Positions 36,700 through 59,527 of a DNA stretch of 64,000 bases are shown here, in pieces; position 1 is the stretch's first letter; each line of letters begins with the position of its first letter. The notes under the pieces were generated by a model that saw nothing but the letters and a program-made list of their open reading frames with translations, did not search any database and was not told the DNA's origin. The position numbers were made by a program, and so were the translations under genes. Origin of the DNA: Rhodopirellula sp. P2 (GTDB taxonomy: Bacteria; Planctomycetota; Planctomycetia; Pirellulales; Pirellulaceae); contig NZ_CP118225.1 in the NCBI RefSeq assembly GCF_028768465.1, positions 6,553,001 to 6,617,000 on the forward strand, in the 5' to 3' direction.

Positions 36700-36846
36700 A
36701 GTAGAACATTTGTCCCTAAATGTTTGCGTGACAGGGTGGAGCCGTCGAGCAGCGTGACGCGAACGGTTCGCAGTGGACTTGGTAAAGCAACGAAGCTTGG
36801 CGGCGGAGGACTGCCCGACGGAACAGTTGGGGATAACTGTTCTACT
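36700..36846 (+). repeat. Hairpin-ended dispersed repeat, complete copy
   Basis: Ends AACATTTGTCCCTAAATGTT and AACAGTTGGGGATAACTGTT. One Watson-Crick pair of each hairpin is replaced by a G-T (G-U in RNA) pair, so both stems remain foldable. It sits about 90 bp from the tRNA-Pro remnant. Confidence 0.8.
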
Positions 36847-36932
36847 CTGATGCCATGGATTGCCAGGCCCCAAGTGGAGCCGGAGGCAGGATTGCCTCGG
36901 TAGGGGGCGGTGTGCGACACCGCGAAAGAAAG

Positions 36933-36972
36933 TCGGGATGACAAGATTCGAACTTGCGACCTCTGCACCCCC
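36933..36972 (-). other. att site: tRNA-Pro 3'-half remnant (outer island boundary)
   Basis: 40 bp identical to the 3' half of the tRNA-Pro gene at 59453-59527, from the discriminator base to the anticodon loop. Identity stops in the anticodon loop, a common crossover point for tyrosine recombinases. It lacks the 5' half, so it is not a tRNA gene. Confidence 0.8.
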
Positions 36973-37104
36973 GGGGTCACATTGAATTCTCCCTAACTCG
37001 TTTGCACTCCTTTGCCTACCTTTGCACACTCGCAAAAAGGGCAGACCAGAGGGCAGAGATCTCCGTGTATCGGATGGCTTTCCATTCCATTTCAGGAGAA
37101 AGCC

Positions 37105-38046
37105 ATGCGTCAGCCACACCCCTTCTATCGCAAATCCAAGCAAGCTTGGAAACGCTATCACCAAGTGATGGCCGAGAACGAACCGATCAAAGACACAACC
37201 ACAGCAGAAACCATCTTTGAACGGTACTTGGATTGGGTTCAGGAGAATCGCAAACCCGGCACCTACGCGAAGTTTCGGCATTTGCTTTCGCGTCTTGCGA
37301 AGTTCATCGGCAAGCGGACGAAAGTTGCCAAGCTGAGCGGGGTCGATCTTTCTCATTGGGTTGAAAGTGAATCCACCTGGAACTGTACCACTCGACATAA
37401 TGGAATCGGGGCGGTTTCGCGATGCTTCAATTGGGCGGTAGGGATGGGACTCCTGTCCTCTAATCCAGTATCTCGTGTTCCCGAAAAACCGACTCCAAAA
37501 CGCCGCGAAGTTGTTTACAGTCACCAAGACTGGAAAGAATTGAGGGCTCTGGTGAAAGATAACGCGTTTGGCGATCTCCTGGACTTCATGTGGGAGACCG
37601 GCTGTCGTCCGCTCGAAGCCCGGACCATGGAATCCCGGCACATCAATTTGCAATCGGGAGTCGTGGTCTTTCCACCATCGGAAGCGAAGGGTGCCAAGCG
37701 AGAACGAGTAATCTACCTTACCGAGAAAGCAATCGAGATTTGCCGAGACCGCGTCGACAAATTCCCCGAGGGCCCCGTTATGCGAAACCGTAGGAGACGC
37801 CTATGGACCAAGGATGCGATCAACTGCCGCTTTCGTCGACTTCGCAAGAAGCTCGGCCGGAAGGCAAACGCCTACGCGATCCGACACAGCTACGCGAACA
37901 ATGGTTTGATTGACGGGATGGACTCCCTGACGCTGTCCCAGCTCATGGGACACGCCGACATCAGCACGCTTGCCAAAAACTACGCTCACTTGGCAAGCAA
38001 CCCCCAATATCTGCGGGAACAGGCTCGCAAATTGCGAGACTCTTGA
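37105..38046 (+). CDS. Tyrosine recombinase/integrase
   Basis: 313 residues. ATG 37105 has a good Shine-Dalgarno (AGGAG at 37094-37098); an ORF start at 37012 would run through the att-flanking repeats. The N-terminal SAM-like core-binding domain (about 30-120) precedes the catalytic domain. Arg168 lies in TGCRPLEAR, Arg260-His261 in AIRHSYAN, His283 in LMGHADIS and Tyr293 in NYAHL. The first His of the usual HxxR box is Tyr here, a variant tolerated in this superfamily. Lying beside a tRNA-Pro 3'-half remnant, it is the likely enzyme for integration of the island's first element. Confidence 0.92.
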   Translation: MRQPHPFYRKSKQAWKRYHQVMAENEPIKDTTTAETIFERYLDWVQENRKPGTYAKFRHLLSRLAKFIGKRTKVAKLSGVDLSHWVESESTWNCTTRHNGIGAVSRCFNWAVGMGLLSSNPVSRVPEKPTPKRREVVYSHQDWKELRALVKDNAFGDLLDFMWETGCRPLEARTMESRHINLQSGVVVFPPSEAKGAKRERVIYLTEKAIEICRDRVDKFPEGPVMRNRRRRLWTKDAINCRFRRLRKKLGRKANAYAIRHSYANNGLIDGMDSLTLSQLMGHADISTLAKNYAHLASNPQYLREQARKLRDS

Positions 38047-38378
38047 GACAACAAATATTGGGATAGGTATGGGTTTCAGGTGAACGTCGGTCCGAGCTCC
38101 GTTGTCTTCCCAAGATCATTTCCATATTTTTTCCTTCGCGGATATTGCGTCGTAACGTTGGAAGGCTTGTGTTTTTCTTCGCTTGTCTATCTACGGTGCT
38201 CCTCCATTGCAGAATATTTGTAGTTTAGAATGGGCAAGACCATTTACATCTTGCATCGCCATATTCGCTAGTTTCACCGCGGCCGATACAAACGGATGCC
38301 TAGAGAATCCGCGAGCAGTCAATCAGTATCTCGAGCCTCCCTCCGCTTCTTCTCGCTTGCCCAGTTATCTGATCTCCA
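38047..38378. other. AT-richer intergenic region
   Basis: About 330 bp between the integrase and zinc-ribbon/HEPN genes. It is noticeably more AT-rich than the chromosomal part and probably holds the promoter of the latter. No gene was recognised. Confidence 0.45.
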
Positions 38379-40343
38379 GTGAAAACGATAAACCAAACCG
38401 GAATTGTCGTGCCGTTGCTTGTGGCCCACAACTTGGAACTCGCTAAGGAATGGCATCCATCGAAAAACGCCGATGTGGATCGCGATGCAGTTCCTCACAA
38501 CAGTAGCCGGACAGTTTGGTGGCGTTGCAGAAAAGATAAACGCCATGAATGGCGTGCCCAGGTCGCAGCACGTGCGATCCGCGGAAACGGTTGCCCGTAT
38601 TGCTCGGGCCGACGGGTATTGCCAGAAGACTCATTGCAATGCCTCTTTCCTGAAATCGCAGCCGAACTGCACCCAACCCGCAACGGCGATGTCGATGCGA
38701 GGGAACTCGCGCCACAATCGAATCGCAAAGTTTGGTGGCAATGCTCGAAGGACCGTTCCCACGAATGGCAATCCTGGGTGCAGCATCGCACCTCTGGGAC
38801 GAGCAACTGCCCGAAGTGCCGCAAAATCACGAACTCTATTTCGGTTACCGCACCTGCACTAGCGACCGAATTTCATCCTACCAAAAACGCCCCCAAAACT
38901 TCCGAAAACGTTACCCTCAGCAGTACGTTTCGAGCGTGGTGGCGTTGTTCGAAGGACCCAACTCACGAGTGGCAGGCCCAAGTAGCAACTCGTGCACGTG
39001 GGTTAGGGAATTGCCCAGACTGCAGAGCCAAACATCCCAACCACCGCCAAACCAAAAAGCGAACTAAGACACTGGGCAGACGAACCGTCGCGGACGATTC
39101 AGAACTGATGAAATACTGGCATGCTGAACGAAACTCAGAAGTCAACCCCTCAGAACTAACGTGCAGTTCATCGAAGGTCGTCTGGTGGAATTGTCCAAAG
39201 GGTCATGAGTGGGAAGCTTCCATCTCCCGCATGAATGACCGCGCTCATAAATGTAAAGAATGCCGCCCTGTAAATCGCGGATCCGTTCCGGAGCGAGATT
39301 CCATTTTCACCCTTCATCCCGAGCTTATAGATGAATGGCACCCTACAAAAAACGCAGACTTAGACCCGCGGCAAATCGGACCGGGAAGCCGACGCCGACC
39401 GGTTTGGCAATGCAAAGAGAACGCATCCCACGTCTGGGAAGCTTACGTATTCCAGCGAACCAAAGGATCACAATGCCCATACTGTGCTGGCACGAAGGTT
39501 GACTCTGACACTTGCTTGTCAGTAGTGGATCCTGAAACCGCGGCTCTTTGGCATCCTTCCTTGAATGCCTCGCTAAGCCCCGATAGCGTCAGCCGTCAAA
39601 GCGCGAGATCAGTCTGGTGGCAATGTGATGTGGATTCAACTCATCAGTGGAAACGCTCAATTCAGAACCAGGTGAATCTTCGCAGTTGCCCTGAGTGTGC
39701 AAAACGCGATCGCAACCATCTGCTCGACCAGTCGCTTGGGCGTGCCGTATCAGAAAATGTCGCGTTCTACGAGACCTTTGAAGTTTCACTTGGAAACCTA
39801 TCAAGGCTCGCGTTGATGGATATTTCGGATCCGGTCCTTCAACAGGTGCTGTTTCGGCAGGTGTACGCGGGTGTTGTAGCATCAATGGAAACGTACCTAT
39901 CTGACGCGTTCATCAATACCGTCGTACCTTCGACCGAATTACGACATCGCCTCATGAGGAGCACGCCCGAATTCACGGATAAACGCTACGGCCTAGATGA
40001 AATCATCGAGTGGGTAGCAAACTCCGAATCTCGTGTTAAAAAACACTTGCTCAGCCAAATCTATCACAACCTTTTTAAGGTTGAAAAGATGTTTTCAAGC
40101 GTCTTGCAGGTCGAGTTTCCCGCGAAGGAAAAGGTCGCACAGCTGACCCAAATCGTCAACCAACGCCATAACATTGTCCATCGAAACGGTCGTTCCAAGG
40201 ACGGTTCAACACGGGTCCTTACGCTTGGAGAAGTGAACGACACCATAAGACTAGTGCGAGATTTCATCGTCGGCATCGATAGCCAAATCGCTGCTCGCGC
40301 GTGGACAACACAAAAAACTGCTCACCAACCCTCGGCCGACTGA
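38379..40343 (+). CDS. Six zinc-ribbon repeats fused to a HEPN-like domain (candidate defence protein)
   Basis: A 654-residue cytoplasmic protein starting at GTG 38379 without a clear Shine-Dalgarno. Residues about 15-445 hold six repeats of one pattern: (L)WHPxKN, then WWxC..DxxHEWxA..., then CPxC. These match the treble-clef/DUF4379-type zinc ribbon often fused to nucleases. The remaining 210 residues are helical and contain QRHNIVHRNGRSKDG with Arg596 and His601, the Rx4H signature of HEPN ribonucleases (RiboL-PSP/MAE_28990-like). The gene sits just behind the integrase of a mobile island, a usual place for anti-phage cargo. It may be a nucleic-acid-sensing zinc array with an RNase effector; function is inferred. 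No partner gene is adjacent. Confidence 0.75.
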   Translation: MKTINQTGIVVPLLVAHNLELAKEWHPSKNADVDRDAVPHNSSRTVWWRCRKDKRHEWRAQVAARAIRGNGCPYCSGRRVLPEDSLQCLFPEIAAELHPTRNGDVDARELAPQSNRKVWWQCSKDRSHEWQSWVQHRTSGTSNCPKCRKITNSISVTAPALATEFHPTKNAPKTSENVTLSSTFRAWWRCSKDPTHEWQAQVATRARGLGNCPDCRAKHPNHRQTKKRTKTLGRRTVADDSELMKYWHAERNSEVNPSELTCSSSKVVWWNCPKGHEWEASISRMNDRAHKCKECRPVNRGSVPERDSIFTLHPELIDEWHPTKNADLDPRQIGPGSRRRPVWQCKENASHVWEAYVFQRTKGSQCPYCAGTKVDSDTCLSVVDPETAALWHPSLNASLSPDSVSRQSARSVWWQCDVDSTHQWKRSIQNQVNLRSCPECAKRDRNHLLDQSLGRAVSENVAFYETFEVSLGNLSRLALMDISDPVLQQVLFRQVYAGVVASMETYLSDAFINTVVPSTELRHRLMRSTPEFTDKRYGLDEIIEWVANSESRVKKHLLSQIYHNLFKVEKMFSSVLQVEFPAKEKVAQLTQIVNQRHNIVHRNGRSKDGSTRVLTLGEVNDTIRLVRDFIVGIDSQIAARAWTTQKTAHQPSAD

Positions 40344-40432
40344 CGCCAATTTCGGTTGCTCACGATCGACATCGTTTTCGTTTGTCTTGTTGTCGTGCCT
40401 GCGCGACGGCAACAAACTTTTGAGTCAGTCAT

Positions 40433-40642
40433 CTACAGAAGGTGCTTCGGCGGTCGCTCTTTATGTGCTCTCGTCCCTTTCTTTGTAAACCGTAACGCCC
40501 GCTTCACCTCGTCAAAGTCGAATCGAAGAGTGCCGCGGCCTGTTCCAATGCGATAGCATGGAATCTCACCTCGTTCGCGAAGTGCATAGATCGTTTTTCT
40601 ACTCACGCCGAGGCTGTTAGCAAGCTCTTTTACGCTGATCAT
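40433..40642 (-). CDS. Excisionase/AlpA-like helix-turn-helix protein
   Basis: 69 residues. MerR/excisionase-type HTH: ISVKELANSLGVSRKTIYAL, then RGEIPCYRIGTGRGTLRF and DFDEVKRAL. Such proteins act as recombination directionality factors or regulators. Its ATG overlaps the stop of the rep pseudogene by one base (TAATG), so rep and this gene form a coupled unit. With the integrase it completes the int-xis-rep set of an integrative plasmid. Confidence 0.82.
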   Translation of the reverse strand: MISVKELANSLGVSRKTIYALRERGEIPCYRIGTGRGTLRFDFDEVKRALRFTKKGTRAHKERPPKHLL

Positions 40643-41479
40643 TAGGCTGCTCTCCTTTCTTGGTTTGTTTCGTCGTCCGCTTGGCTGTCCAGACCGCTGA
40701 GGATGAAGGCCTTTTGGTAGCTGGCGAGAAAGTCTTCCTGATCGATTCGTATCTCGGCGTCGGAATTGCCTGCTTCCTGCAGCAATCGGTTGGCGTGGTC
40801 CAGAATAGCTTCGTAGGTCTCAAGCGGGACTGCCTGATCGAGCAACACCGCCTTCAGATGGTCGCGAGCTGTCTTGATAGCCCGCACGGGCAAAACGGAT
40901 TCCCGATCAATTGGCGTCAGATCTTCTTCGGTTCCCTGTAGCACCCGATCGGCCGCGTCGGCGATCGCTTGCCATAGCGGCAACACTTGCGAACGCGACT
41001 GATTTTTGTTGTCACGGTCGATTTCTGCTGTGGTTAGACGGAACTGGTTGTGCATTAACGTCTTGTAGATCGTTGCTGCCCTCTCGAAGAGATGCTCCGG
41101 TGTATCAACACTGTATTCCCGAAACTTGGCCCGACGTAGCTGCCATTCGACTCTTGTCGCCGCTTCCGGCATCTCCCCACCCCACCGCCTCGCGATCATT
41201 GCGTTCAGGTATTCCGTTTGTTGTTTTTGGCTCGCTTCGAACAGCTTGTCATAGACAATCAGATAACAGGGGGCTTTCCCGGCAGAGCCCCCCCGTCTTC
41301 CGCCTGGTCACGATGTTTTCGTGCAGTTGGCATGCACGAGTTCGAGTGATGAACTGATTGTTTGCAACAAGATCTTGCAGCTCCGTTACCGGCAGCCCGG
41401 CAACATCAATCGCGAGGTCCACTCGGTTGAGCTTCTTCCAGCGAACACGCCCGCCCAGTGCTTCGATAGAGAGGAGCAA
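40642..41479 (-). pseudogene. Rep_trans-like replication initiation protein, frameshifted
   Basis: The upstream part (41479-41285) reads WKKLNRVDLAIDVAG, then NNQFITRTRACQLHENIVTRRKTG; the downstream part (from about 41285) reads YDKLFEASQKQQTEYLNAM, ATRVEWQLRRAKFREY and a C-terminal helical region. These match the replication initiation factor (Rep_trans) pattern: RxDLAxD, YDKxxE, RxEwqLrR. A run of seven C at 41287-41294 is one base longer than the matching stretch in the copy at 57749 and breaks the frame. The N-terminal end also lacks a good start. The original initiator probably drove rolling-circle-type replication of the excised element. Confidence 0.75.
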
Positions 41480-41513
41480 ATAGCTGAGATCGGATTAGTG
41501 TATTCACCTCAAA

Positions 41514-41906
41514 TTACCCGGCCAGGCGCCTTATCGACTGCAGCCCAGGTACCTGCGAAAAGTCGCGTACATTGTGTGTGGCAAGCGGCACGCTCAATGC
41601 GATGGCGGTTGCGGCGATCCAGGCATCCGCAACATGGAGAACCCGCCCCGCTTTTTGGACGTCCGAGCGCAGCCGAGCCCAGGTTCGGCAGAGATGCTCG
41701 TCGACGGGGAAAACGAGGTACTGCTGAGCGATTAAGTTTTCGACTCGTTCGCGGCGTGCCTCACCCCAATGATGGAGTTCCTGCCACAACATCAACTCGG
41801 CCTGCGTTTGGAACGAGATGACAAGCTGCTTGCCATCCAGGGCCTGAGCGTAGCTTGCAAAGCGAGAGTCGTTCTTCAGATAAAACGAGAGGACGTCAGT
41901 GTCCAC
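41514..41906 (-). CDS. VapC-like PIN-domain toxin (copy 1)
   Basis: 130 residues with PIN acidic residues Asp4 (DTDVLSFYL), Glu37 (QTQAELML), Asp94 (HVADAWIAAT) and Asp115 (HNVRDF). It is a Mg-dependent RNase toxin, paired with the antitoxin upstream. The GTG at 41906 is used here. An ATG at 41922 overlaps the antitoxin stop (TGATG) but is out of frame: it reads MDRIVCGH then stop. Adding one GT unit to the GTGTG run would join it to the toxin as MDRIVC-VDTDVLSF. So either GTG is the real start or both copies carry an ancestral 2-base loss. The protein is identical to the copy at 57979-58371. Confidence 0.87.
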   Translation of the reverse strand: MDTDVLSFYLKNDSRFASYAQALDGKQLVISFQTQAELMLWQELHHWGEARRERVENLIAQQYLVFPVDEHLCRTWARLRSDVQKAGRVLHVADAWIAATAIALSVPLATHNVRDFSQVPGLQSIRRLAG

Positions 41907-41921
41907 ACACGATGCGGTCCA

Positions 41922-42257
41922 TCAGCGGCTGATTCCCCGCGTTGAAGCATCTTGGCGAGACTCGCCGACAAACCGAATAAAATCATCGACCGATTGATCT
42001 TCAGGCCAGATACCGGCAGGGCTCGATTTGCCAGCTTCGAAGGGAGCCACGCCTTGCTGCTTGGCAAGCAACTCAATGTCTACTCGTTCGGGCATCGCTT
42101 CGATAGCTTCTTCGCCATTGCTCGCGTGGCTTGCTGCTTGCTGTCTGGCGAGCAGCTCAAGAGCTCGCATCAATGCGGATTCGGTATTGGGAAACGCTCC
42201 GCTCGCGACGAGACCGTTTAGAACGCTCTCGTATTCCTGGGGGATGTCGATCGTCAT
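41922..42257 (-). CDS. VapB-like antitoxin (copy 1)
   Basis: 111 residues. The start at 42257 has a good Shine-Dalgarno (GGGAGG) and gives MTIDIPQEYESVLNGLVASG, with TESALMRALELL; this is a short DNA-binding, ribbon-helix-helix-like N-terminus. The C-terminal half (QQGVAPFEAGK, GIWPEDQSVDDFIRFV) is the likely toxin-binding tail. It lies directly upstream of the toxin gene and probably autoregulates the pair. It differs from copy 2 by Glu versus Val after QEY. Confidence 0.82.
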   Translation of the reverse strand: MTIDIPQEYESVLNGLVASGAFPNTESALMRALELLARQQAASHASNGEEAIEAMPERVDIELLAKQQGVAPFEAGKSSPAGIWPEDQSVDDFIRFVGESRQDASTRGISR

Positions 42258-42516
42258 GGCGGCCGCCTCCCTTGTTTCTCGCTGCATTCACTCAAGCAAT
42301 CATCACACGAATCTTTATTTTAGTCAATGAATTTGAAGCCGCTCGCTACGGGGGTTCCTCCATCATTCGCTTGAAACCAGGGCTTTTCTCGCGTTTTTGT
42401 TCGATAGCAGCTCGGTCACCACTGGCTCGTCATCAGAAATCAATGCGGCGGTCGATCGATCGGCATGAAACCTGGGTGACACCAGCTTTCCCCGCTTTGC
42501 ACTTGTGTGCAGGGTG

Positions 42517-42624
42517 GAGACATCGAAAAGCGTGACGCGGACGATTGGCGGTGGACTTGGCGAGACAACGACACTTGGCGACTGAGAATTGCCCGACGGA
42601 ACAGTTGGGGACAACTGTTCTACT
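42517..42624 (+). repeat. Hairpin-ended repeat, right part
   Basis: The body and right hairpin AACAGTTGGGGACAACTGTT are conserved, but the left hairpin is replaced by TTTGCACTTGTGTGCAGGG. The same replacement occurs at 58981-59089 as part of the duplication. Confidence 0.75.
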
Positions 42625-42708
42625 CTGATGCCATGGATTGCCAGGCTCCAATGGAGCTGGAGGCAGGATTGCCTCGGCAGAGACGGTGTGCGACACCGTG
42701 AAAGAAAA

Positions 42709-42751
42709 TCGGGATGACAAGATTCGAACTTGCGACCTCTGCACCCCCAGT
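42709..42751 (-). other. att site: tRNA-Pro 3'-half remnant (internal junction)
   Basis: 43 bp identical to the tRNA-Pro 3' half up to the anticodon loop. Beyond it the sequence changes to a short palindrome (TCGAGCCGCTCGA, 42751-42763). It marks the junction between the two stacked elements and is not a functional tRNA gene. Confidence 0.8.
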
Positions 42752-42806
42752 CGAGCCGCTCGACTCGAAAACCCTCGTATTCACTAGGTTTTAGGCGAAT
42801 TCGGAT

Positions 42807-42884
42807 TCCAGGAAGTGCACGATATAGGCCTGTTTCCCATGGGAAACGTGCACATATCGTGCACAAATTACCTTTCTTCCTGGA
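42807..42884. repeat. Nested inverted repeats, candidate origin or control site
   Basis: Three symmetric layers: TCCAGGAA (42807) with TTCCTGGA (42877-42884); GTGCACGATAT (42815-42825) with ATATCGTGCAC (42854-42864); and a perfect 16-bp palindrome GTTTCCCATGGGAAAC (42832-42847). It lies about 55 bp inside the second element next to its att site. Confidence 0.7.
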
Positions 42885-43219
42885 GGGGGACACTCTGCGA
42901 AGCTAGGTTTTGAAAACTTAGGCAGGCATCCGATAAACCACGCACTTCGTGTGCGTCGCCTCCTCGCCTGCGGCTCCCTTGGTTCAATGCTCGATCCAGC
43001 ATAGGCGGCTTCGTGCCGCAAAGGTGGCGGACCTCGTGTCCGCCACGCGTTCACTCCGGTGCATCCGTTGGCAAACCAATGTCCGACACCTTTGATCGCG
43101 TCCGTTGCCCGGCGGCTTATCGCGAGAAAGTGTCCGGCGATGGCAAGGCTCTTTTGGAAGGACCGTCGCAAGGTTTTTAGCTAGAAATGAAGCCGCGGAA
43201 GAAAAAAGAGACCACAATC

Positions 43220-53771: not shown

Positions 53772-54212
53772 TTAAACGATTTCTGTTGAATCTAACTCAG
53801 TTAGATACCTGGCGAACTCTGACGACGCATTACGCATGTCATCCCTCTTTGCAGTGGCGGCGGTCCAATCAGATTCAGAAACAGCGATGTCGCCCCAATC
53901 AGGCCAAATCTCTCTTTGAATTTGAATCGTGTCTCCATTAGACACGATTTCAAAGGATGCACCGTCAAGACATTCTGTAGTTGACAACCGTTGGAGACGC
54001 GTGGCTCCATCGGGCGAAGCCTCCGGTGCGTTTGCTAGTTCGTTTAATACATCGAGTATCGACTCGAAGTAAAACGGATGATTGCTAGGCCAACGAAACA
54101 GATTCTTTCCACCAACCAGAAGAAGGACGGAACCATAGGGCACCTTGCTTTCCGCTCTTGGAGAAGCGTTAACAGTGACTGTCGGAGTCGTGAATTTGAA
54201 ATCCTGAATCAT
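53772..54212 (-). CDS. Putative immunity protein of the RHS toxin
   Basis: 146 residues, no signal peptide, acidic (DLDSTEIV-like end, many Asp/Glu). Its ATG overlaps the stop of the RHS gene (ATGA at 54209-54212), the usual toxin-immunity layout. I recognise no known Imm family. The small acidic cytoplasmic character and tight coupling support the role. Confidence 0.7.
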   Translation of the reverse strand: MIQDFKFTTPTVTVNASPRAESKVPYGSVLLLVGGKNLFRWPSNHPFYFESILDVLNELANAPEASPDGATRLQRLSTTECLDGASFEIVSNGDTIQIQREIWPDWGDIAVSESDWTAATAKRDDMRNASSEFARYLTELDSTEIV

Positions 54213-56497
54213 TCTTGAATCGCCCAGCCTCCGTTTGGTGTTTGACGTCCAATTTCCCGAACGGGAACATCGCGTAAGGCGATTGCTCGGTTCGTTCCTC
54301 GGCTATCGACACCGCAAGTTGAACCGCTCCAGTGATACTCACCGCTCGAGTGTGGTTCAAAACGATGATAGATCGTCTGGTTACCGCGTTGCTCTCGGGC
54401 CCAACGAAGAATCTTACCTTGCTGGTTTCGGACCCCGACACTTCGAGCGAATAACTGGACGTGATTTGTTGGCAATACGCTCTTGCCCGCAACGTACGTT
54501 GGAGTTCCTGGAACGTGATGCCCTGGGTTGACGTAGGTGTGCGGAACTGCGGTAACTCTTTGCGATGGTTTGCCAGATGCAACGTGGGTTCCAAGATTAT
54601 CCAGTTCATCTAGATGATCGACCTGGGCAAGAATTCGGTGGCTTGTTCGCCTGGAAACAGAACCAACAAGACCACCTCCCAACATCGCCGCATTTCCTTC
54701 GATGGCTGACTCAGCCAACGTTTTCACTCGAGCTGACTCTGCCGCCGAAAGTCGTTTGCTTCGGTTCAAGCGATCAAGACTGTCGAGTCTTTCCAATGGA
54801 TCGATGACACCATTGCCATTTGTGTCACAACCGTTAACGCCCGCGACGCGATCATTCGCCCGCAGTTGGCGATCGAGTTCTATTGCGAGGTTTTCCGCCG
54901 AATGGTATCCCGTTACTCTGTTAATCGCCCAGCGGTGAGGCCCCCACCAACCCCATACTTGAAACCAATACGTGTCACCCCACCATCTTGGGTCATCCTC
55001 GGCTAGACCACTCGGGTCAATTGCATTGGTTGGCCCGTTCCCAACATACCGATACAGATTCGCATCCCCCGCCGCGAAGCCGATAGGGTCATTGCTGAGC
55101 CAACGGCCTGTGGCCGGGTCGTACCAACGGGCTCGGTTGTTCTGCAAGCCCGCGTCGGCGTCCCAGTCGCGGCCCGTGTAGCCGAACAGCGCGTCGATCG
55201 CATCGGGATGACTGCTGGAGATTGCAGTGCCTGAAGCGTCATAATTCTGCTCAACAATTCGATTGCCGAAGCTGTCGTAGGCGACGTGCTGGCGAATCTC
55301 GCCGTTGTTGTCCATCAAGTCACGTACGCTGCCCAAATGATCGGTCAATGCCCAGAAGGTCTCACCGGACGTAGCAGCCGCGGTCGTCGTTGAGATCTCG
55401 GGGCCAGCTCCATCGTCATACTGCTCGTCAGCCAGCAACTGGTCCACCATCTCGCCGTACAGGTAGCGGCTGGAAAGCGTGAACGTCTCGCTCGCCGCCT
55501 CGCCATCAGAGTCGACCGCACGCAGCACCGTCTGTCCTTCCGTCCAGACAAATGCTTCGTCACGATCAAAATCGCCATCCCCGTCGCTGTCCAGGCGTTT
55601 GCCAACGCGATTGTCAAAGGCATCGTAAACGTACTCGATCTTCTGCGTCACGCTGCCCACGGACGATGTCTTCTCGGTGATCGATGCCAAGCGATTGCGG
55701 TGGTCCCATTCGTACAGGGTCACCTCGCCCGTGCTGATCAACGTTCGACTGAGCGTGTTGCCCTCATCGTCGTAGGTGTAGTTGTATGTTCCGTCGCTCT
55801 GCAGTTGATTGTGCGAGTTGGCAGCCGACTGCGACGCGCCGCCACTGGATTTGCGGTTCCCACCAGCATCGAAGTCATAGGACTCTGCACTCGCAAGCCC
55901 AAACGGCTGAGACAGCCCGCTGATCGCCGTGCTTGAAGCCGAGGTCAACTGATCACGCACGTCGTAGCCGTAAGCGGTCGAGGTGCCATCACGATAAGAA
56001 GAGAACTGCGTCAAGCGATTGTCCGCGTCATACTGGAACGTGTAAGCGGCCAGCAAATCAGAACTGCCAAGCGAGGAGGGGAGTGTCGACGTCCCGCCCC
56101 AGTTCTCACCGGAGGAGATCGCTGACGATCCATGAGTCAAACTGCTGAGCCGACCAGCTTCATCATACGCCATCCGGCTGTGCACTTCCAAATCCGATGA
56201 GCCAGCAGTCGTTGCGGAGTAGCGGTGCAAGTCCGTCAATTGAGACGCGCGGTTGTAGTCGAACTCGGCCAGTTTGGGAGCAACAGCATGCCCGCTGGAC
56301 TGCGATTGCTGAACGATCGACGTCAAACGATTCAGGTAATCGTATTCATAGCCATTTTCGAAGTCGTCCACGCCACCGGAGATCACGCCGCCTGAAAGCG
56401 TTCCCCCAAAATTGGCCCCCAGTTCAATGCGGTTGCCTCGATTGTCAAACTCACGAGTGAAGTTGATCGCAATCAAACGTTGGTTGGCATCAACCAA
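54209..56497 (-). CDS. RHS-repeat polymorphic toxin, 5'-truncated, with C-terminal tip
   Basis: 762 residues open from 56497. YD/RHS repeats run from residue 1 (YDYLNRLTSI, YDADNRLTQF, YDVRDQLTSAS) to the core end (ALTDHLGSVRDLMDNNGEIR, NRARWYDPATGRWLSNDPIG) and NAIDPSGL near residue 503. A tip of about 255 residues follows, with a Ca-loop-like DTNGNGVIDPLERL and a late NQTIYHRFEPHSSGEYHWSG, which I cannot assign to a toxin family. N-terminal export and most of the core are absent; a stop codon occurs upstream of 56497. The gene is therefore a displaced RHS-CT cassette rather than a full toxin. The next gene overlaps it (immunity). Confidence 0.8.
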   Translation of the reverse strand: MVDANQRLIAINFTREFDNRGNRIELGANFGGTLSGGVISGGVDDFENGYEYDYLNRLTSIVQQSQSSGHAVAPKLAEFDYNRASQLTDLHRYSATTAGSSDLEVHSRMAYDEAGRLSSLTHGSSAISSGENWGGTSTLPSSLGSSDLLAAYTFQYDADNRLTQFSSYRDGTSTAYGYDVRDQLTSASSTAISGLSQPFGLASAESYDFDAGGNRKSSGGASQSAANSHNQLQSDGTYNYTYDDEGNTLSRTLISTGEVTLYEWDHRNRLASITEKTSSVGSVTQKIEYVYDAFDNRVGKRLDSDGDGDFDRDEAFVWTEGQTVLRAVDSDGEAASETFTLSSRYLYGEMVDQLLADEQYDDGAGPEISTTTAAATSGETFWALTDHLGSVRDLMDNNGEIRQHVAYDSFGNRIVEQNYDASGTAISSSHPDAIDALFGYTGRDWDADAGLQNNRARWYDPATGRWLSNDPIGFAAGDANLYRYVGNGPTNAIDPSGLAEDDPRWWGDTYWFQVWGWWGPHRWAINRVTGYHSAENLAIELDRQLRANDRVAGVNGCDTNGNGVIDPLERLDSLDRLNRSKRLSAAESARVKTLAESAIEGNAAMLGGGLVGSVSRRTSHRILAQVDHLDELDNLGTHVASGKPSQRVTAVPHTYVNPGHHVPGTPTYVAGKSVLPTNHVQLFARSVGVRNQQGKILRWAREQRGNQTIYHRFEPHSSGEYHWSGSTCGVDSRGTNRAIALRDVPVREIGRQTPNGGWAIQE

Positions 56498-57642: not shown

Positions 57643-57944
57643 CCACCCCACCGCCTCGCAATCATTGCGTTCAGGTATTCGGTTTGCTGTTTTCGGCTCG
57701 CTTCGAACAGCTTGTCATAGACAGTCAGATAACAGGGAGCTTTCCCGGCAGAGAACCCCGTCTTCCGCCTGGTCACGATGTTTTCGTGCAGTTGGCATGC
57801 ACGAGTTCGAGTGATGAACTGATTGTTTGCAACAAGATCTTGCAGCTCCGTTACCGGCAGCCCGGCAACATCAATCGCGAGGTCCACTCGGTTGAGCTTC
57901 TTCCAGCGAACACGCCCGCCCAGTGCTTCGATAGAGAGGAGCAA
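57643..57944 (-). pseudogene. Rep_trans-like initiator fragment (copy 2)
   Basis: The intact-frame equivalent of the rep N-terminal part at 41480-41190, reading through LNRVDLAIDVAG, RKTGFSAGKAPCYLTVYDKL and ending at the duplication border after MIARRWGG. The C-terminal half is absent. It shows the ancestral frame that copy 1 has lost. Confidence 0.75.
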
Positions 57945-57978
57945 ATAGCTGAGATCGGATTAGTGTATTCACCTCAAA

Positions 57979-58371
57979 TTACCCGGCCAGGCGCCTTATC
58001 GACTGCAGCCCAGGTACCTGCGAAAAGTCGCGTACATTGTGTGTGGCAAGCGGCACGCTCAATGCGATGGCGGTTGCGGCGATCCAGGCATCCGCAACAT
58101 GGAGAACCCGCCCCGCTTTTTGGACGTCCGAGCGCAGCCGAGCCCAGGTTCGGCAGAGATGCTCGTCGACGGGGAAAACGAGGTACTGCTGAGCGATTAA
58201 GTTTTCGACTCGTTCGCGGCGTGCCTCACCCCAATGATGGAGTTCCTGCCACAACATCAACTCGGCCTGCGTTTGGAACGAGATGACAAGCTGCTTGCCA
58301 TCCAGGGCCTGAGCGTAGCTTGCAAAGCGAGAGTCGTTCTTCAGATAAAACGAGAGGACGTCAGTGTCCAC
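57979..58371 (-). CDS. VapC-like PIN-domain toxin (copy 2)
   Basis: 130 residues, identical to copy 1 (41514-41906), with PIN Asp4, Glu37, Asp94 and Asp115. It has the same TGATG/GTG start ambiguity. Two identical toxins mean the two antitoxins can probably cross-protect. Confidence 0.87.
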   Translation of the reverse strand: MDTDVLSFYLKNDSRFASYAQALDGKQLVISFQTQAELMLWQELHHWGEARRERVENLIAQQYLVFPVDEHLCRTWARLRSDVQKAGRVLHVADAWIAATAIALSVPLATHNVRDFSQVPGLQSIRRLAG

Positions 58372-58386
58372 ACACGATGCGGTCCA

Positions 58387-58722
58387 TCAGCGGCTGATTC
58401 CCCGCGTTGAAGCATCTTGGCGAGACTCGCCGACAAACCGAATAAAATCATCGACCGATTGATCTTCAGGCCAGATACCGGCAGGGCTCGATTTGCCAGC
58501 TTCGAAGGGAGCCACGCCTTGCTGCTTGGCAAGCAACTCAATGTCTACTCGTTCGGGCATCGCTTCGATAGCTTCTTCGCCATTGCTCGCGTGGCTTGCT
58601 GCTTGCTGTCTGGCGAGCAGCTCAAGAGCTCGCATCAATGCGGATTCGGTATTGGGAAACGCTCCGCTCGCGACGAGACCGTTTAGAACGCTCACGTATT
58701 CCTGGGGTATGTCGATCGTCAT
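58387..58722 (-). CDS. VapB-like antitoxin (copy 2)
   Basis: 111 residues, identical to copy 1 except Val for Glu after QEY. The Shine-Dalgarno GGGAGG precedes ATG 58722. Directly upstream of the toxin gene. Confidence 0.82.
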   Translation of the reverse strand: MTIDIPQEYVSVLNGLVASGAFPNTESALMRALELLARQQAASHASNGEEAIEAMPERVDIELLAKQQGVAPFEAGKSSPAGIWPEDQSVDDFIRFVGESRQDASTRGISR

Positions 58723-58980
58723 GGCGGCCGCCTCCCTTGTTTCTCGCTGCATTCACTCAAGCAATCATCACACGAATCCTTATTTTAGTCAATGAATTTG
58801 AAGCCGCTCGCTACGGGGTTTCCTCCATCATTCGCTTGAAACCAGGGCTTTTCTCGCGTTTTTGCTCGGTAGCAGCTCGGTCACCACTGGCTCGTCATCA
58901 GGAATCAATGCGGCGGTCGATCGATCGGCATGAAACCTGGGTGACACCAGCTTTCCCCGCTTTGCACTCGTGTGCAGGGT

Positions 58981-59089
58981 GGAGACATCGAACAGCGTAA
59001 CGCGGACGGTTGGCAGTGGACTTGGTGAGAAGACGGGGCTTGGCGGCTGAGAATTGCCCGACGGAACAGCTGGGGACAACTGTTCTACT
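58981..59089 (+). repeat. Hairpin-ended repeat, right part
   Basis: Duplicate of 42517-42624; right hairpin AACAGCTGGGGACAACTGTT carries one mismatch relative to the standard stem. Confidence 0.7.
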
Positions 59090-59221
59090 CTGATGCCATG
59101 GATTGCCGGAACGGCGTCTCGCGGGGGCCGGCCTCCTTTGCGACCGCATCACCCCTTCGTGGTTCACGGAAATCAAGGCTGCTCGCTGGCGTCCTGTAGC
59201 CCACAAGCGAAGCTCGAACAG

Positions 59222-59452: not shown

Positions 59453-59527
59453 TCGGGATGACAAGATTCGAACTTGCGACCTCTGCACCCCCAGTGCAGC
59501 GCTCTAACCAGGCTGAGCCACATCCCG
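59453..59527 (-). tRNA. tRNA-Pro (anticodon GGG)
   Basis: 75 nt fold into a full cloverleaf. Acceptor CGGGATG/CATCCCG has the C1-G72 pair typical of bacterial tRNA-Pro. The anticodon stem CTGCA/TGCAG carries loop CTGGGGG, giving anticodon GGG. T arm GCAAG-TTCGAAT-CTTGT; discriminator A; CCA not encoded. It is the insertion target of the island, whose element supplies the 3' half downstream of the crossover. Confidence 0.95.

Follow-up and report, generated by a model that had tools for sequence, protein, structure and literature searches.

A mobile-element gene joining six DUF4379 ribbons to a HEPN-like domain, a candidate one-gene defence system

The fused gene and its tandem tRNA-Pro elements

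The 64,000-nt window (the whole stretch of DNA analysed, in whose coordinates all positions are given) carries a gene with a GTG start whose 654-amino-acid product, hereafter the window protein, joins six DUF4379 ribbons to a C-terminal HEPN domain (Table 1). In an hmmscan search of Pfam, six stretches of the protein match DUF4379 (PF14311) with E = 3.3e-100, above the Pfam cut-off, and residues 480–638 match HEPN_RiboL-PSP (PF18735) with E = 1.4e-7 and 32.1 bits (cut-off 28.4); the latter score rises to 36.3 bits with the HEPN domain alone as query. The initial annotation had described six DUF4379-like treble-clef ribbons, and the profiles agree with it. All six DUF4379 matches of the genome fall inside this one gene. 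A chance domain match is ruled out by the E-values, the residue conservation and the dN/dS ratios. Pfam gave no REase- or Vsr-like C-terminal domain in the protein at E ≤ 10, NCBIfam gave a single match far under its cut-off, and PADLOC gave no family at E ≤ 10, which counts against a defence reading.

The gene sits as element cargo between a tyrosine-type integrase gene and a small, putatively excisionase-like HTH_17 gene. Exact copies of a 28-base stretch from the tRNA-Pro 3′ end lie at 36934, 42710 and 59454 (0 in 100 shuffles), so that this sequence bounds both a 5.8-kb element and a neighbouring 16.7-kb interval. A 1,466-bp end segment common to the two intervals (41177–42642 and 57643–59107, 98% identity), which holds the PIN gene, marks them as two tandem elements at one tRNA-Pro. 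The presumed partner of the PIN gene, at 41922–42287, has no Pfam or PADLOC match. The mobile island posited in the initial annotation is thus borne out by the exact repeats and by the phage-type integrase beside the first of them. Of its integrase and xis/rep flanks, the integrase and the small HTH gene are confirmed; for the putative ‘rep’ fragment, Pfam gave no match at E ≤ 0.001.

Two further features were seen nearby. A dispersed repeat occupies 36700–36850: with 36700–37000 as query, most of the 60 own-genome matches listed lie within the first ~150 bases. In the neighbouring tandem interval, 54209–56497 encodes what looks by eye like an RHS-like-repeat protein with a different C-terminus.

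Table 1 The fused gene, its domains and the surrounding element, in window coordinates
Feature	Position	Strand	Evidence
Copy of tRNA-Pro 3′ end, att-like, left element end	36934..36961	.	Exact 28-mer
Tyrosine-type (Phage_integrase) integrase; an internal ATG may be the true start	37012..38046	+	Phage_integrase, E 1.5e-15
DUF4379(x6)-HEPN gene, 654 aa	38379..40343	+	GTG start; ORF and Pfam
Ribbon 1, residues 18–76	38430..38606	+	Profile envelope and Pfam
Ribbon 2, residues 90–148	38646..38822	+	Profile envelope
Ribbon 3, residues 158–216	38850..39026	+	Profile envelope
Ribbon 4, residues 240–296; most divergent ribbon between orthologues	39096..39266	+	Profile envelope
Ribbon 5, residues 313–369	39315..39485	+	Profile envelope
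Ribbon 6, residues 384–440	39528..39698	+	Profile envelope
C-terminal HEPN (RiboL-PSP-type), residues 445–654	39711..40340	+	Pfam 480–638; model pLDDT 90 over residues 440–648
RHNIVHR, residues 596–602, predicted RNase active site (R596, H601)	40164..40184	+	Residues 596, 597, 599, 601 and 602 invariant in 27/27
HTH_17 gene, putatively excisionase-like	40433..40642	-	E 2.5e-11
PIN-domain gene, probably the toxin in a VapBC-like pair with 41922–42287	41514..41906	-	PIN, E 1.4e-11
Copy of tRNA-Pro 3′ end, att-like, right element end	42710..42737	.	Exact 28-mer
Intact tRNA-Pro (GGG), from which the att sequence derives	59453..59527	-	Exact 28-mer copy begins at 59454

Conserved features of the HEPN half and the ribbon array

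Alignment of the window’s HEPN domain with 26 domains from viral contigs, which are 16–29% identical to it (n = 27; window position = alignment position + 439), leaves E504, L507, H563, R596, H597, I599, H601, R602 and G604 invariant in all 27. Every domain has the Rx4-6H motif in which a polar residue follows the arginine (R596-H597...H601 in the window protein), and R596-x4-H601 of RHNIVHR lies exactly where the initial annotation had read the HEPN signature. Homologues lacking Rx4H were also looked for, and all seven intact ones keep it. PF18735 is matched at E ≤ 0.01 by 26 of the 27 domains; the orthologue L019, at 26.6 bits, falls slightly under the cut-off of 28.4, which counts against the defence RNase that we favour below.

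A model built from the 27-domain alignment (mean pLDDT 90, pTM 0.84) puts the Rx4H motif at the C-terminal end of helix 583–602 (helix 3) and E504, the helix 2 acid, within helix 485–515. The predicted positions of R596/H601 and E504 agree with the layout given in passages of PMC3710099, in which HEPN RNases have their catalytic motif and supporting acid at those helix sites. Among the 50 PDB matches listed by Foldseek for this model, the most probable is the HEPN toxin 7ae6 (probability 0.97; E 0.26; TM 0.40/0.52). None of the 50 reaches E ≤ 0.001, designed helical bundles stand above 7ae6 in order of E-value, which again counts against the favoured account, and a PDB sequence search with the HEPN domain gave nothing convincing. 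The initial annotation had proposed a HEPN fold of residues 445–654 as its test; the fold predicted there is HEPN-like, with good support, and we infer that the window protein has HEPN RNase activity.

The same type of HEPN domain is found behind other N-terminal partners: among the 26 viral-contig proteins, 10 carry HEPN/Toprim-NTD1 and 6 carry HEPN/RES-NTD1, and DUF4379 is absent from all 26 scanned. At E ≤ 0.1, sequences resembling this HEPN domain were matched in 801 plasmid records and 7 phage records. One viral-contig relative (L146:148–1065) has a short N-terminal part in which paired CxxC motifs form a possible single zinc ribbon.

Each ribbon of the window protein has the putative zinc ligands C..H..CxxC, by our own assignment, present at 24 of 24 positions. 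Among the seven intact orthologues, 23 of the 24 ligand columns are invariant; the exception, L167, in which ribbon 4 has one putative ligand missing, weighs against the favoured account. The ribbon number is six in every intact copy (7/7), with 87 DUF4379 ORFs from other loci having 1 to 12 repeats each. Ribbons at the same position are 52–66% identical across the seven orthologues, above the 38–42% between ribbons inside one protein. This fixed count and the higher same-position identity suggest six individually specialised positions, which could be read as an address.

The array was modelled separately from the HEPN half. Its model has a pLDDT of 86.7 and a pTM of 0.39, so that the single ribbons are trusted and the superstructure is not. 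All seven PDB chains that it matches at E ≤ 0.001, including 6yxx_E2, 6sga_Fd (mt-SAF33), 7pub_DS, 7aor_at and 6hiw_DS, come from mitoribosome entries. Six of the seven entry titles name Trypanosoma, and the seventh entry, 9hny, has the same sequence as 6sga. The match of mt-SAF33 to the array extends to sequence (E 4e-6).

Distribution, selection and genomic contexts

The fusion is sparsely distributed. In 60 relatives, the own genome included, it is complete in G000, G001, G003 and G025 and truncated in G004, and G027 holds a different DUF4379 protein. HEPN was found in 8 of the 241 genomes of the family, again counting the own genome, and every time in the fused gene, which in G571 is split in two frames. 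Beyond the family, the other four matches in a phylum draw of 392 genomes are a HEPN protein without ribbons in G227, with a weak HEPN/RES-NTD1 match, and DUF4379 proteins without HEPN; a class draw of 397 genomes returned the own genome, G624 and a HEPN-like ORF without ribbons in G738. Over 173 loci, both domains share one ORF solely at the fused-gene loci and at none of the 130 others (of which L022 belongs to the same family). Candidate fusions elsewhere fell away on inspection: H3 and H15, the two of 195 matched plasmid DUF4379 records whose alignments run past residue 443, have no HEPN match, and L171, a weak class-level HEPN match, has no DUF4379. Two copies are broken, L168:7454–9393 being split between two frames and L026:8050–9216 stopping behind ribbon 5, close to the end of a contig; such broken or truncated copies (G571, G004) count against the favoured account.

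Judged by substitution ratios, the fused gene is under purifying selection, with dN/dS of 0.08–0.13 over the array (four close pairs) and 0.03–0.08 over the HEPN domain (three close pairs; the fourth saturated). Silent sites are saturated in pairs that include the window copy. The GC content of the gene lies under that of its surroundings in all seven loci compared, with differences running from 0.005 (L165) to 0.054.

DNA similarity between comparable copies (L023, L024/L026, L165 and L168) starts −86 to −10 bp from the gene and ends ~10 bp past the stop. L024 and L026 have 0.8 kb upstream in common, and L166 and L167 are alike on both sides of the gene. No flank similarity was found for the window and L025 copies, which are too diverged for testing their own gene ends. 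The nine loci thus make up seven contexts; no partner gene common to all of them was seen by eye, and the tRNA-Pro att sequence was beside none of the four other copies tested.

The initial annotation had looked to homologues near mobile or defence genes, and several do lie near mobile, TA-like or defence genes (by eye, and by profile in G624). The G624 copy (L165, L169 and L170) has a DUF4238 gene (DUF4238-Pers) 8 bp 5′ of the fused gene; PLD_Helicase, DUF1156_MTase, DUF3780 and DUF499 genes upstream on the same strand; and, downstream past a plus-strand ORF, a DruE1-type helicase, a NERD-helicase and a weak DruD1 match. By PADLOC models, this locus is a defence island. An obvious island of this kind is present at one of the nine loci, the others lying near mixed genes in a comparison with no background control, which counts against the favoured account. 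A tmRNA gene lies 2.5 kb from the fused gene in L023, a tRNA-Met gene lies near that of L024, and sulfatase-like genes (by eye) are near those of L025 and L168.

Rfam gave no family at its gathering score in 36700–42900; the sole row is a microRNA family far under that score, and the AbiF/AbiD RNA (RF03085) is unmatched at E ≤ 0.1. A conserved upstream RNA as in AbiF was considered and rejected: the nine upstream regions are unalignable as a whole, with a short common stretch in the closer copies only.

Candidate roles of the fused protein

The account that we favour, and consider probable, is that of a one-gene HEPN RNase, probably of the abortive-infection type, addressed or triggered by its six-ribbon array. 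The array would act as an address or sensor that binds one particular nucleic-acid or ribonucleoprotein target (ribosome or other RNA, or DNA) and, through autoinhibition, may keep the HEPN domain off until the target or an infection-linked change engages it. A HEPN homodimer, formed in the usual HEPN manner, would then cleave RNA via Arg596 and His601, probably metal-independently, and this cleavage would arrest phage or host growth. N-terminal domains of RiboL-PSP-HEPN proteins are proposed, in passages of PMC3710099, to sense infection and to restrain a suicidal RNase. Since HEPN relatives swap their N-terminal domains, a sensor role for the DUF4379 array is the simplest account here. A role in defence is favoured because of this sensor-HEPN precedent, the G624 island and mobility without a partner gene.

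We assign a small chance to a protein-only address, in which the six specialised ribbons would dock the RNase on a specific ribosomal or structured-RNA site, where infection would trigger cleavage. Such a protein would be a guide-RNA-free counterpart of Cas13-like RNases, in which a HEPN toxin had taken the place of a mobile endonuclease’s DNase.

The array may instead read DNA. It could have been inherited from homing or Vsr-type endonucleases and act at R-loops, at nascent transcripts of a fixed site or at invading DNA, with the HEPN domain cutting the transcript; we regard this as a serious but doubtful alternative. Bacteria, viral contigs and plasmids all carry DUF4379 arrays, with matches in 195 plasmid records. 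When 82 of the 87 ORFs from other loci (five short ones left out) were scanned against Pfam at E ≤ 0.01, a threshold laxer than the Pfam cut-offs, DUF4379 was found with the endonuclease-type families MTES_1575 (9 members), DUF2726 (8), DUF559 (3) and Mrr (1), and helicase and NUMOD families also recur; HEPN is not among the 25 of 46 families listed, and most C-terminal tails in that scan have no assignment. Related repeats are read, in parts of PMC12350094, as NUMOD-like modules with which EDxHD/Vsr homing endonucleases bind DNA, in a mobile context, and mobility close to the gene ends resembles that of free-standing homing genes. Against DNA reading stand the description of HEPN domains with the Rx4H motif as RNases in passages of PMC3710099 and the array model’s PDB matches at E ≤ 0.001, all of them mitoribosome proteins. 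The open-licence literature searched yielded no paper that shows the ligand of DUF4379 arrays. Because this alternative concerns the target and is compatible with defence, its odds overlap with those of the favoured account.

An addiction or toxin module, in which the HEPN toxin would stabilise its islands and have no anti-phage role, being held in check either by its own array or by an antitoxin that is unlinked or an RNA, is rather unlikely. It draws on the PIN- or TA-like genes near the fused gene in the window (by profile), and in L024, L166 and L167 (by eye), and on HEPN-MNT toxins, the 7ae6 family, being the most probable solved folds for the HEPN model among the 50 listed. Against it, inspection by eye showed no partner gene that all contexts share, comparable copies have almost no flank in common, the nine upstream regions cannot be aligned as a whole, and Rfam gave no family at its gathering score in 36700–42900. 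The PIN gene of the window belongs to the 1.47-kb island end duplicated at 57.6–59.1 kb, and by eye it does not resemble those of L166 and L167. No nucleotidyltransferase antitoxin (HEPN-MNT, type VII) was found among the five window neighbours scanned by profile; L024 6713–7315 is nucleotidyltransferase-like by eye. An ordinary host RNA-processing gene with no role in conflict would fit the strong purifying selection and is very improbable given the patchy distribution, the mobile island, the changing contexts and the lowered GC content (by 0.005 only in L165).

Both parts of the window protein, and the plan of a sensor joined to HEPN, are already known; we found no paper describing a DUF4379-HEPN fusion in the open-licence literature searched, in keeping with the initial annotation, which knew of no such system. 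RiboL-PSP-HEPN proteins with HEPN/Toprim-NTD1 or HEPN/RES-NTD1 (PF18735, PF18870 and PF18871; Anantharaman et al. 2013, PMC3710099, in the passages available) resemble it in the HEPN domain, the invariant residues and a sensor-like N-terminus, but the N-terminal part of the window protein is a six-repeat DUF4379 array. DUF4379/CapR-like arrays with an EDxHD/Vsr, MTES_1575 or DUF559-type endonuclease, as covered in parts of PMC12350094, have the same or a related tandem repeat and a mobile context, whereas the window protein has HEPN in place of the endonuclease and six repeats against their 1–12. The mitoribosome proteins have DUF4379-like folds and, unlike the window protein, are eukaryotic ribosome subunits or assembly factors with no nuclease. 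AbiF/AbiD and Cas13-type HEPN RNases, described in excerpts of PMC12165695, are linked to defence and have the Rx4H motif; excerpts of PMC3710099 make AbiF and AbiD distant relatives of RiboL-PSP-HEPN, and RF03085 is given in PMC12165695, as far as excerpted, as the non-coding RNA associated with them. Unlike these, the window protein has a single HEPN domain and, in place of a guide or regulatory RNA, a protein zinc array; no associated RNA was found.

If the favoured account holds, the window fusion would extend the abortive-infection repertoire of HEPN proteins by one more type of sensor. Joining the array to an RNase-type domain makes the question of its ligand testable, as the target of the array would set the cut site. 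The array would be a modular, swappable address should its ribbons recognise a sequence or a site on the ribosome.

An independent DUF4379/HEPN neighbourhood was seen in a groundwater planctomycete MAG (L003:303–4557), where a 172-aa HEPN-like ORF (RRNKIVH; PF18735 E 0.007, below the cut-off) lies directly 5′ of a DUF4379(x5)-helicase-methyltransferase gene.
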